This document shows, piece by piece, positions 25,556 to 48,093 of a DNA stretch of 48,184 nt; the first letter of the stretch is position 1; each line of letters starts with the position of its first letter. Source of the DNA: Candidatus Obscuribacter phosphatis (lineage in GTDB: Bacteria > Cyanobacteriota > Vampirovibrionia > Obscuribacterales > Obscuribacteraceae); assembly GCA_001899315.1 (NCBI GenBank), contig MOYA01000001.1, positions 1,319,544 through 1,367,727 on the forward strand, written 5' to 3'. The notes beneath the pieces were generated by a model. It did no database searches and was not told where the DNA came from. It worked only from the letters and a program-made list of their open reading frames with translations. The position numbers and the translations under genes were made by a program.

Positions 25556-26317
25556 ATGCTTGGAAAGAATCTGCCGCTTTCAACACTGGTTCATGATCAG
25601 TCCCTTACCTCGATACAGTTCCCCATGGGTCTCGGCACTGTCGGCGACATACATGCCGATACAATCATCCTTACCTGGGTGGCGATGATAGTCATCCTTG
25701 TAGGTTGTGCGTCGATAAGCGGCTCACTGGTGGCTGAAGGACCAGGCGGTAAAGGTCAGGCGGTTCTAGAAGGTATCTATACATTCGTATCTGATATCGC
25801 CAAAGGTTCTATCGGCGACCATCGCTACAAACCCTATTTGCCTTTACTTTGCGGACTATTCCTCTTTATTTTGGTTTCCAACTTGATAGGCATCTTCCCC
25901 TATCCTGTTTTCGAGCATATGGAAGGCTGGCCCCATGTTGGTCATGAGCATTTCGAAGTGGCAGCCGCCACCACCGATTTCAACTTGACTGCCGGTCTGG
26001 CTGCTATCTCAATCCTCACCTATCTCGGCTCCGGCGTTATGGTGCATGGTTTTGAGTATGTGAAGCTCTTCTGTTTGAAACCAATAGCGCCGCTTGAGTG
26101 GCTTGACCTTGTGATCAGACCCTCAACCCTGGCACTCCGTCTTTTATTGGTTATTACAGCCGACGAAATGTTGAGAACTGCCTTCTTGAAAATCTGCCCC
26201 ATGCTTGTTCCTACGGCAATTATGGGTTTCGAAACTTTCATCGCCTTGGTGCAGGCTTTCGTATTTACACTTCTCACTTCGATTTATATCGGAGCCGCTG
26301 TGGCTGAACACCACTAG
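25556..26317 (+). CDS. atpB: ATP synthase F0 subunit a, with altered arginine motif
   Basis: 253 residues and five or six membrane helices. Subunit a provides the two proton half-channels beside the c-ring. Family marks are present: SNLIGIFPYP (108-117), TDFNLTAGLA (140-149), the essential R195 in TLALRL, E204 (E219 in E. coli) and Q233 (Q252) in FETFIALVQAFVFTLLTSIYIG. The normally invariant RLFGN reads RLLLV (195-199), so the Gly-Asn pair next to the arginine is replaced by Leu-Val with no change in length. The reading frame is intact. A strong terminator follows the gene. Confidence 0.93.
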   Translation: MLGKNLPLSTLVHDQSLTSIQFPMGLGTVGDIHADTIILTWVAMIVILVGCASISGSLVAEGPGGKGQAVLEGIYTFVSDIAKGSIGDHRYKPYLPLLCGLFLFILVSNLIGIFPYPVFEHMEGWPHVGHEHFEVAAATTDFNLTAGLAAISILTYLGSGVMVHGFEYVKLFCLKPIAPLEWLDLVIRPSTLALRLLLVITADEMLRTAFLKICPMLVPTAIMGFETFIALVQAFVFTLLTSIYIGAAVAEHH

Positions 26318-26382: not shown

Positions 26383-26418
26383 TTTTGGCTTTAAACCGAT
26401 ATCGGTTTAAAACCAAAA
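26383..26418. repeat. 36-bp near-perfect palindrome, copy 1
   Basis: TTTTGGCTTTAAACCGAT faces ATCGGTTTAAAACCAAAA with one mismatch in 18 pairs. It lies 12 bases after the atpB terminator and about 230 before the atpE promoter. A close relative stands at 48060-48093; both share the 16-bp core AACCGATATCGGTTTA and the TTTGGCT/CCAAA ends. No U-tract follows. It is either a binding site of a symmetric regulator or a dispersed palindromic repeat. Confidence 0.8.
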
Positions 26419-26730: not shown

Positions 26731-27027
26731 GTGGACCACCAATTGATTGCCCAGGCTGGAACAGCGGCAAGCGGTATTGACAATATTACCCTGATCAAGT
26801 GCGCAGCGCTTCTCAGCGCAGGTATCGGCGCAATCGGCGTAGGCGTTCCTGGTATCGGTATCGGTATTGCCGCCTCTAGAGCTCTCGAAGGTATGGCTCG
26901 TCAACCCGAAATGCAGGGCAAACTTCTCGTCAACGGCATCATCTTCGCCGCTTTGATGGAAGCTCTCGGTCTCTTCGCCTTCCTCGTCGCTCTTCAGCTC
27001 GTCGGTATCGGCAACGCCAATCACTAA
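26731..27027 (+). CDS. atpE: ATP synthase F0 subunit c
   Basis: 98 residues, two helices joined by the polar loop RQPE. E77 in FAALMEALGLFAF is the proton-carrying carboxylate. Helix 1 has the tight Gly repeat (GIGAIGVGVPGIGIGIA) that packs the ring. The Na+-binding Gln of helix 1 and the Ser/Thr after the Glu are absent, so a proton ring is inferred. The GTG start is supported by AAGGAG eight bases upstream. The N terminus is about 15 residues longer than in cyanobacteria. It is the first gene of the second atp transcription unit, and translation is probably strong because c is needed in many copies. Confidence 0.96.
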   Translation: MDHQLIAQAGTAASGIDNITLIKCAALLSAGIGAIGVGVPGIGIGIAASRALEGMARQPEMQGKLLVNGIIFAALMEALGLFAFLVALQLVGIGNANH

Positions 27028-45489: not shown

Positions 45490-46440
45490 ATGCCACTACA
45501 AGCAAGTATTTCTTCTGCCGTCGGCAACACGCCCTTGATTCGCCTCAACAGACTGGCTCTTGGTTTGGAAGCAGAAGTCTATGTGAAAGTGGAATCTATG
45601 AATCCACTTGGTTCAGTGAAAGACAGAATCGGCATCTCGATGATCGAAGATGCTGAGAAGCGGGGACTGATTGAACCGAGCAAGACCGTACTTGTCGAGC
45701 CGACTTCTGGCAACACAGGCATTGCTCTAGCATTTGTCGCCGCAGCCCGGGGCTATAAACTGATCATAGCCATGCCCGAGACAATGTCGCAGGAGCGCCG
45801 CCGGATGCTCAAAGTCCTCGGAGCCGAATTGATTTTGACACCGGGACCGGAAGGAATGAAAGGTGCAGTGGCTAAAGCCGAAGCTTTAGTGAAAGACCGC
45901 CCCAATGCCTACATGCTTCAGCAATTCGATAATCCTGCCAATCCCAAAGCTCATTACGAAAATACCGGACGAGAAATATGGAAAGATCTCGATGGTCGCG
46001 TGGACATTCTTGTCGCTGGCGTGGGCACCGGTGGTACTATCAGTGGTGCTGGACGCTTTCTTAAGGAAAGAAATCCCGCTGCCAAGGTAATTGCTGTGGA
46101 GCCTGCAGACAGCCCAGTAATCAGCCAGAAACTAGCTAACAAGCCATTGCAGCCTGCCCCCCATAAGATTCAAGGAATCGGCGCCGGTTTTATTCCTGGA
46201 GTGCTAAATCTCGACCTTATAGATGAAGTTTTCCATGTCACTAATGAGGAAGCCTTAGAAATGGGACGACGTCTACCCACTCAAGAAGGCATACTGGCAG
46301 GAATTTCTAGTGGGGCAAATGTACACGCTGCTTTGTCTATCGCCAATCGCCCAGAGAACAAAGGGCTCAAGATCGTCACCTTCATTTGCAGCACTGGCGA
46401 AAGATATTTTTCAACGGCTCTCTTTGAAGATATTATCTAG
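45490..46440 (+). CDS. cysK: Cysteine synthase (O-acetylserine sulfhydrylase)
   Basis: 316 residues. PLP lysine K44 in [20 protein letters not shown] binds the cofactor phosphate or substrate; GTGGTISG (about 176-183) is the PLP-phosphate loop; [16 protein letters not shown] closes the protein. It makes cysteine from O-acetylserine and sulfide. Cystathionine beta-synthase-like PLP enzymes are the alternative, but the N-terminal [17 protein letters not shown] and the size support CysK. A gene for serine acetyltransferase is not in the window. Confidence 0.95.
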
Positions 46441-46524: not shown

Positions 46525-47988
46525 TTAGACCCGAACAAACGGCGGGGAGCCTGTGGCGCGCAGCAGAGGCGATCCTAAATAGCCCAGAGATAAGCACACA
46601 TCAAAAAGCTGATTCTTGCAGGCTTCACTACTATTGAGCGTCAATGAACCACCAAAATCTTCTACTAAAGAAGAACTTGCTTGGTCTATCTTCTCTATGT
46701 TTCCTTTGAAGTATAGAGAAAGATTGACCAATAGTTGAATGTGCTTTCTCGCTGAGCCGATGCCTAGAGTCTTCAATATTGATATCAGGCTCGAAGTCTT
46801 CCGGAATAGTTCATTTGTAGCAGAGGCTCCAATTGCGGTCGTGCACAAACTGCAGCTAGATGCGTCGCAGCGCGCGCGGCTGAACGCACTCAGGTCCTTC
46901 TGCTCTCGTTTTATAATGCGTGCTCTTGCAATTTGCCACATCGATAAATTGCGCAGGAGTCCATGCTCTTCAATGGCTTCGAATGTTGACTTCTGCGCCT
47001 GACCGCGCTTCAGGAGGTCTTGCCAAAGAAGCTTGGTTGATTCGCTATCGATGAATTCCCACCAGTATCTCTCGGTATCTTTAGAATTCTTTCCATCCGA
47101 TGAACTTGGAACCAGTGTAAGTTTGAACTGCTTTCTTTTTTCGCTGCGGTTAAATCTGCCTCCTGGTTGAGGCTCAATCTCGCCGCTTAGCTCAAGCTCA
47201 ATTAAGGACTCATATACTTGAGAGTGACTCAGTCCGGCCGCTGCTGCTAGTTCGTCAATTGTCATTGAACCATGATTGAGGCAAGAGAGTACAAGTGAAT
47301 CTGTTTCCGAGAGACTTTGGCAATCTTGTAGGTCTTTCTGCTGATCTATTGGTGCTGGATTTGCTGCCACTTTAGCGTCCATTCCATTTTCTTGGTTAGC
47401 CTCAGAACTATCGAAGGCTCGGCTTTCATTGTTTCTTGCTGATGCCTCTTGTTCTTCTAGATATGGCGGCATCAAGCGGTATGTCAATATGCTTCTTCTA
47501 TCAAATAGCTCTATAAAATGGACTGTGTTGACTGGCAACCGTGAATCCACATTCTCAGAGCAGTACAGGTCAATTGCTCCTCTAATACTTTTTACTATGT
47601 GCAGTGCTGATGACTGGGCTACTCTCAGAAATTTCGAGAATGTCGTGGAGCAAATCAAGGCACCATTTTCACTGAACCAAATAGCTGCGAACCAAGCCCT
47701 TAGTTTTCTGACTCTATGAAAAAACGTTCCTGCTGTGATGGAAGAATTCATGTGGCATTCACTGCACCGGAATCTTCTTTTACCCGGCTTAAGGTCGATA
47801 TTCTCATTGTTGCAGTTTCTACAGAAGAGTAGGTTCCGCTCTTTCAAGAGCACATAGAGTCTGAGCCAGCAACTCTCCTCGCTGGGAAATTGCTTCTCGA
47901 AATGCTCCCAAACACTTTCAAGGAAAGCGCTATAAGCTTCTCTGTATTGTTTTTTGTCTAGACCAGAGTCAGCAGGGCTCTTTAGCAT
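46525..47988 (-). CDS. IS1595-type zinc-ribbon/HTH fused to DprA-type winged helix
   Basis: 487 residues. C56-xx-C59 and C75-xx-C78 (FCRNCNNENIDL ... FRCSECHMNSS) followed by TAGTFFHRVRKLRAWFAAIWF (86-105) form the zinc-ribbon and HTH head of IS1595/ISXO2 transposases. No DDE catalytic domain follows. At 228-281 lies a clear DprA C-terminal winged helix: SMTIDELAAAAGLSHSQVYE, then SLIELELSGEIEPQPGGRFN. A third segment (300-487) is unknown and has a C374-C379-C382 cluster (RCDASSCSLCTTAIG). The two DNA-binding domains are joined by a polar linker (180-228). I infer a domesticated DNA-binding protein. A palindrome stands 72 bases upstream. Not an active transposase. Confidence 0.72.
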   Translation of the reverse strand: MLKSPADSGLDKKQYREAYSAFLESVWEHFEKQFPSEESCWLRLYVLLKERNLLFCRNCNNENIDLKPGKRRFRCSECHMNSSITAGTFFHRVRKLRAWFAAIWFSENGALICSTTFSKFLRVAQSSALHIVKSIRGAIDLYCSENVDSRLPVNTVHFIELFDRRSILTYRLMPPYLEEQEASARNNESRAFDSSEANQENGMDAKVAANPAPIDQQKDLQDCQSLSETDSLVLSCLNHGSMTIDELAAAAGLSHSQVYESLIELELSGEIEPQPGGRFNRSEKRKQFKLTLVPSSSDGKNSKDTERYWWEFIDSESTKLLWQDLLKRGQAQKSTFEAIEEHGLLRNLSMWQIARARIIKREQKDLSAFSRARCDASSCSLCTTAIGASATNELFRKTSSLISILKTLGIGSARKHIQLLVNLSLYFKGNIEKIDQASSSLVEDFGGSLTLNSSEACKNQLFDVCLSLGYLGSPLLRATGSPPFVRV

Positions 47989-48059
47989 AGTGCAACTCCA
48001 AGAAGGGCTCTGATATATAGACGTATTTTGACGAGAAAAAGTTCAAAGGCTTTCATTAA

Positions 48060-48093
48060 TTTGGCTATGAACCGATATCGGTTTATAGCCAAA
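48060..48093. repeat. 34-bp near-perfect palindrome, copy 2
   Basis: TTTGGCTATGAACCGAT faces ATCGGTTTATAGCCAAA with one G.T in 17 pairs. It shares the core AACCGATATCGGTTTA and both ends with copy 1 at 26383-26418. Here it lies upstream of the minus-strand fusion-protein gene, just beyond its likely promoter region (TATATAT at 48013-48019). Confidence 0.82.

Follow-up and report, generated by a model that had tools for sequence, protein, structure and literature searches.

Domesticated transposases associated with dispersed palindromes are known from the RAYT/REP systems, in which the RAYTs are catalytic HUH transposases and the REPs are mobile. A second precedent for host use of transposon proteins is provided by the TldR proteins, nuclease-dead repressors derived from TnpB (PMC13418256). 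The winged helix that forms the C terminus of DprA/Smf (DML1, PF17782) is present in the DprA proteins of Helicobacter pylori and Escherichia coli (PMC12386762). Here, we describe a gene that resembles each of these systems in part, encoded on the minus strand at positions 46525-47988 of the window, by which we mean the whole 48,184-nucleotide stretch of Candidatus Obscuribacter phosphatis DNA that was analyzed.

Like the IS1595 transposases (ISXO2/ISPna2-like, PF12760 plus PF12762), the encoded protein has a zinc ribbon and helix-turn-helix head and a homologous, collinear C-terminal end, but it and its relatives lack both catalytic Asp residues, carry a linker and a winged helix in their place, have lost the third Glu, and occupy fixed loci without transposon ends. 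With DprA/Smf the family shares the winged helix and some promoter usage, whereas SAM and Rossmann RecA-loading domains are missing and the winged helix is internal. As in TldR (PMC13418256), a transposon nuclease has been inactivated while DNA binding was presumably retained, possibly for host regulation; in contrast to the RNA-guided, TnpB-derived TldR proteins, these are relatives of DDE transposases whose core was replaced, with no evident guide RNA, and they form a set of about 20 paralogues with putative palindromes of their own. The combination of a domesticated transposase with dispersed palindromes recalls RAYT/REP, yet the palindromes examined here stay at orthologous positions and the proteins have no nuclease. 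No description of this architecture was found in the literature searched.

An IS1595 transposase whose DDE core was replaced

The open reading frame is intact, encodes 487 amino acids and converges with a cysteine-synthase-like gene (45490-46440); its full-length orthologue is 72% identical (dN/dS 0.215). All parts of the protein lie on the minus strand. The IS1595-type head (residues 28-146; 47551-47907) contains zinc-ribbon cysteines 56, 59, 75, and 78, which are invariant or nearly so in an alignment of 38 family members, and is followed immediately by a conserved motif, HFxxLFxRRSxLT...E (residues 155-180; 47449-47526), in which F158, R165, S166, P175, and E178 are conserved in at least 90% of members. 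At the position of the transposase DDE core there is an unconstrained linker (residues 181-224; 47317-47448) and then the DprA-type winged helix (residues 225-277; 47158-47316), and the retained IS1595 C-terminal end occupies residues 388-478 (46555-46827), with a block that reads GSARKHIQL in this protein and GISRKYLQLYL in the family consensus. Selection differs by region: dN/dS is 0.80 in the linker (residues 171-222) but 0.08, 0.21, and 0.14 in the head, winged helix, and C terminus, respectively. An AlphaFold model built with 48 sequences was confident for the head (pLDDT mostly >90) and the winged helix (94-98), moderate for the C terminus, and below 50 for residues 200-223; a Foldseek search against the PDB gave no match to the whole protein, returning winged helices only, none below E 0.02.

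Single-sequence hmmscan did not find the PF12760 zinc ribbon in the 487-residue protein, and we therefore turned to profile-profile comparison; across the family the PF12760 match was weak and seen in 6 of 38 members (best E 0.017). Aligned by hhalign with genuine IS1595 transposases from relatives, the head matched with probability 99.5 (E 3e-22) and the C-terminal block matched the last 70 residues of the transposases with probability 94.6 (E 6e-8), whereas 40 column-shuffled profiles reached at most 2.6% and 0.9%, respectively. An earlier note, made from the letters of the sequence, had proposed an IS1595-type head, and this assignment was borne out even though hmmscan of the single protein missed it. 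The same note had left the Cys-containing C terminus as unknown; it is the remaining end of an IS1595 transposase, and in two relatives this region is matched by the NCBIfam model transpos_IS1595 (NF033547).

That no DDE nuclease is present, as the note also held, is right for the catalytic core: both catalytic-Asp segments of IS1595 are absent, the interval between head and C terminus is unmatched in hhalign, and PF12762, the DDE core, has no match anywhere in the genome. The third catalytic Glu has no counterpart in the retained C-terminal end. Since both ends are homologous to, and collinear with, IS1595 transposases, the intervening Asp-bearing region has been replaced by the linker and winged helix, and the family is an IS1595 transposase whose DDE core was physically replaced with both flanks kept. 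The joining of head and winged helix described in the note thus stands, but a simple fusion does not, because the transposase C terminus was retained as well and the winged helix therefore occupies the former site of the DDE core. In a relative, a degenerate IS1595 copy (L210, G022:C38) has its DDE core deleted internally while head and C terminus are kept, so loss of the core does occur.

The winged helix itself was correctly placed mid-protein by the note, with PF17782 (DprA_WH) matching residues 225-277 at E 6.5e-12, above the curated cut-off. It is matched by all 38 family members, and the 20 DprA_WH matches in the genome comprise the family members and a single true DprA, which is encoded separately; the closest sequence relative in the PDB is DprA (3maj, E 1.5e-5). 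In a score-based comparison meant to relate the winged helix to the DprA of the host lineage itself, no DprA from outside the family cleared the filter. A Pfam scan found no Rossmann RecA-loading domain in the 487-residue protein. Within the family-level group the DprA-type winged helix seems to have been reused repeatedly. Three loci in relatives (L292, L293, and L295) join it to XRE/HigA-like helix-turn-helix heads.

Family distribution, synteny and selection

What had been presented as a single odd gene belongs to a family of about 20 paralogues. The genome of the window has 19 paralogous loci and its sister species (G002) has 20; in the former about 20 paralogues are intact or nearly so and mostly 29-38% identical. 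At one locus (L069, G000:C2:688-690 kb) a member is broken into two open reading frames, with a masked stretch nearby; its orthologue (L075) is unbroken. Members occur in most genomes of the family-level group, a single family within the cyanobacterial phylum, with 19-20 in one genus, and the fused architecture recurs in well over 100 open reading frames across them, with full-length profile matches as low as E 1e-122. The search at E 1e-10 also covered 292 genomes from the rest of the phylum, where, among the matches listed, head and winged helix never shared an open reading frame: winged-helix matches fell in frames of DprA length and head matches in IS1595-like frames, so the fused architecture is confined to the group as far as sampled.

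Given so unusual an architecture, a chance fusion of two adjacent genes or an assembly artefact might be suspected, but its repetition in that many open reading frames, at such profile scores, leaves this a negligible probability. We rejected accidental gene fusion on the presence of the same architecture across most genomes of the group.

By their flanking sequence, all 19 loci correspond one-to-one with loci in G002, dN/dS over 18 orthologue pairs is 0.13-0.26, indicating purifying selection, and no transposon-type terminal inverted repeats were found around the gene at 46525-47988. The note's idea of a domesticated transposase is upheld, and the architecture proved to be conserved across many genomes. 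Descent from a transposase and the many copies would also suit an element that still moves through the genome, as such or as a recent non-autonomous copy; we regard this as very improbable, as the loci are syntenic, the paralogues are mostly only about 30% identical to one another and under purifying selection, and the DDE core is missing. Synteny and the lack of end repeats led us to reject mobility.

A promoter motif common to DNA-uptake genes

Upstream of the gene lies a promoter-like element of ECF-sigma type, TTGAACTTTTT-N12-CGT (48021-48046, minus strand), which we found upstream of all 39 family genes in the two species (38 of them in a scripted scan limited to a fixed search range) and, in other genera, at 16 of the 23 family genes that were checked. 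The exact motif occurs 46 times in the genome of the window (control, 0), with 19 copies before family genes and 12 before a second expanded family; others precede comEC, comM, radC, dnaE, and Spy-like genes, and one-mismatch versions precede comF, yraN, and dprA, although dprA bears the motif in a minority of the relatives checked. The second expanded family encodes proteins of about 190-300 amino acids with weak similarity to AbiEi antitoxins and the motif upstream (L120, L122, L127, L128, L132, L136, L137, L139, and L142-L145, plus L147 and L148). Of the 36 genomes in the family-level group, 35 have the motif, which is almost never seen elsewhere and occurs even in group genomes that lack the transposase-derived family; the regulon therefore either predates this family or extends beyond it.

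An exact copy also precedes an operon that encodes an ECF sigma factor, a CxxC anti-sigma-like protein and a Spy-like protein, in that order (L133, G000:C1 about 3.0754 Mb). The AAC-N17-CGTC spacing resembles that of ECF promoters, and from the motif's position we infer that it is read by the ECF sigma factor of this operon, which is probably autoregulated.

The common promoter bears on our main rival explanation, in which the proteins act directly on DNA in natural transformation, as a DprA partner or as a protector or sorter of incoming DNA, with the palindromes described below acting as single-stranded hairpins. A promoter held in common with comEC, comM, comF and radC, and with dprA in part of the genomes, would fit such a role, as would the DprA-type winged helix; the missing RecA-loading domain and the motif-bearing dprA of only a minority of the relatives checked do not. 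Of the two roles that the earlier note had offered, regulator or DNA uptake and repair, the first is the better supported, and the second gains an indirect link through this promoter.

Palindromes and a proposed regulatory role

Upstream of the promoter of the gene is an extended palindrome, TTTGGCTATGAACCGATATCGGTTTATAGCCAAA (48060-48093, core 48071-48082), a putative operator whose 17-bp arms are 94% complementary and whose core is kept in the orthologue. In 9 of the 19 family genes of this genome its core motif, ACCGATATCGGT, precedes the promoter in exact form, and in several more a variant does, while no palindrome was recognizable upstream of two of the 19 (L066 and L068). Exact copies number 78 in this genome and 77 in G002, dispersed over genic and intergenic sites, with some tandem arrays, and we therefore rejected the palindrome as a family-only operator. 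The arrays (G000:C1:478862-478993, C1:2873774-2874000, and C2:680586-680777) have periods of about 40, 57, and 45 bp, respectively.

At the orthologous sites examined, including those inside genes, the core was unchanged while the flanks were 70-90% identical, and at intergenic sites six arm positions were altered on both sides, all six being re-paired. A mobile repeat is not supported, as the sites examined stay at orthologous positions. A second palindrome in the window, TTTTGGCTTTAAACCGATATCGGTTTAAAACCAAAA (26383-26418), lies between atpB (25556-26317) and atpE (starting at 26731); it is conserved in G002, core included, with arm changes re-paired, and its arms are identical to those of the operator at 48071 at 16 of 20 positions, the best of nine operators. 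This long palindrome sits just past a terminator-like hairpin.

Palindrome site statistics cover this genome and G002. On contig C1, 11 of 23 palindrome clusters have a family gene at most 30 kb away, a number reached by 29 of 10,000 random placements. For clusters that are not operators themselves and are no more than 30 kb from a gene whose operator has the exact core, summed arm identity with the nearest gene's operator was 216, against 137 +/- 15 in permutations, none of which (0/5000) reached it, and that operator was the best of the nine in 12 of 17 clusters; similar arms around one gene could be due in part to local duplication. Both distance cut-offs, 30 and 50 kb, were picked once the pattern was visible and the statistics were built stepwise on the same genome, so the clustering numbers describe this genome. 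Across 36 genomes, palindrome number correlates with member number (rho 0.69, p 3e-6; rho 0.63 excluding the genus of the window), whereas the count of promoter motifs does not (rho 0.26), and family-free genomes have 0-2 palindromes. Exceptions are G025, with 68 palindromes and about 3 members, and G013, with 1 palindrome and 13 members.

Several long-armed intergenic copies resemble bidirectional terminators, and the palindromes might accordingly be terminators or insulators unconnected with the protein, the family regulating through other sites. We think this quite unlikely, as the core is invariant even in intragenic copies, the arms match the paralogue, and where the family is absent 0-2 copies are found. 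Re-pairing of arm changes would suit the hairpins of a direct role in transformation, but about 78 palindromes per genome are few for an uptake signal, and some 20 paralogues that have diverged and whose palindromes cluster locally suit regulators better; we consider direct action on transforming DNA unlikely, though the most serious competitor, and regulation the better supported role.

About 20 fixed genes with a common promoter and palindromes of their own suggest an unrecognized family of DNA-binding regulators, and we consider it probable that the family consists of lineage-specific, nuclease-free, transposase-derived regulators, probably transcriptional, expressed from an ECF-sigma-type promoter and autoregulated through the palindrome. 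We propose that a DprA-type winged helix took the place of the lost DDE core in an IS1595 transposase that retained both flanks, and that the gene would then have multiplied within the genus to copies at about 20 fixed places in the chromosome, each of them diverging. Each copy would be transcribed from the ECF-sigma-type promoter that it has in common with DNA-uptake and DNA-processing genes, and each paralogue most likely recognizes a palindrome with the core CCGATATCGG and partly paralogue-specific arms. Binding is predicted because the arms match the nearest paralogue, an indirect support; placed upstream of the gene's own promoter, a bound palindrome would bring about autoregulation, and recognition may extend to a few more sites, most of them no farther than about 30 kb away. 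Any regulatory outcome of this putative binding is likewise predicted. Counting against regulators are the exact core before only 9 of the 19 genes and the many palindromes located inside genes or in tandem arrays a long way from any family gene. More tentatively, the family may form a network linked to competence and the ECF regulon, in which each of some 20 core-replaced transposases co-diverges with extended palindromes of its own, clustered within about 30 kb of the gene, and so marks or regulates its own neighborhood; if true, such a local paralogue-site system would be of a kind not described before.

The family offers a clean case in which a transposase core was swapped for a host-type DNA-binding domain with the flanks kept, giving rise to a large, vertically inherited family, and the motif yields a predicted DNA-uptake regulon for a lineage of the cyanobacterial phylum that is little studied and for the most part uncultured. 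The role of these proteins can be tested directly through the promoter that they have in common with DNA-uptake genes and through the palindromes matched to each paralogue; both would show a route by which a transposase can seed a new regulatory network.
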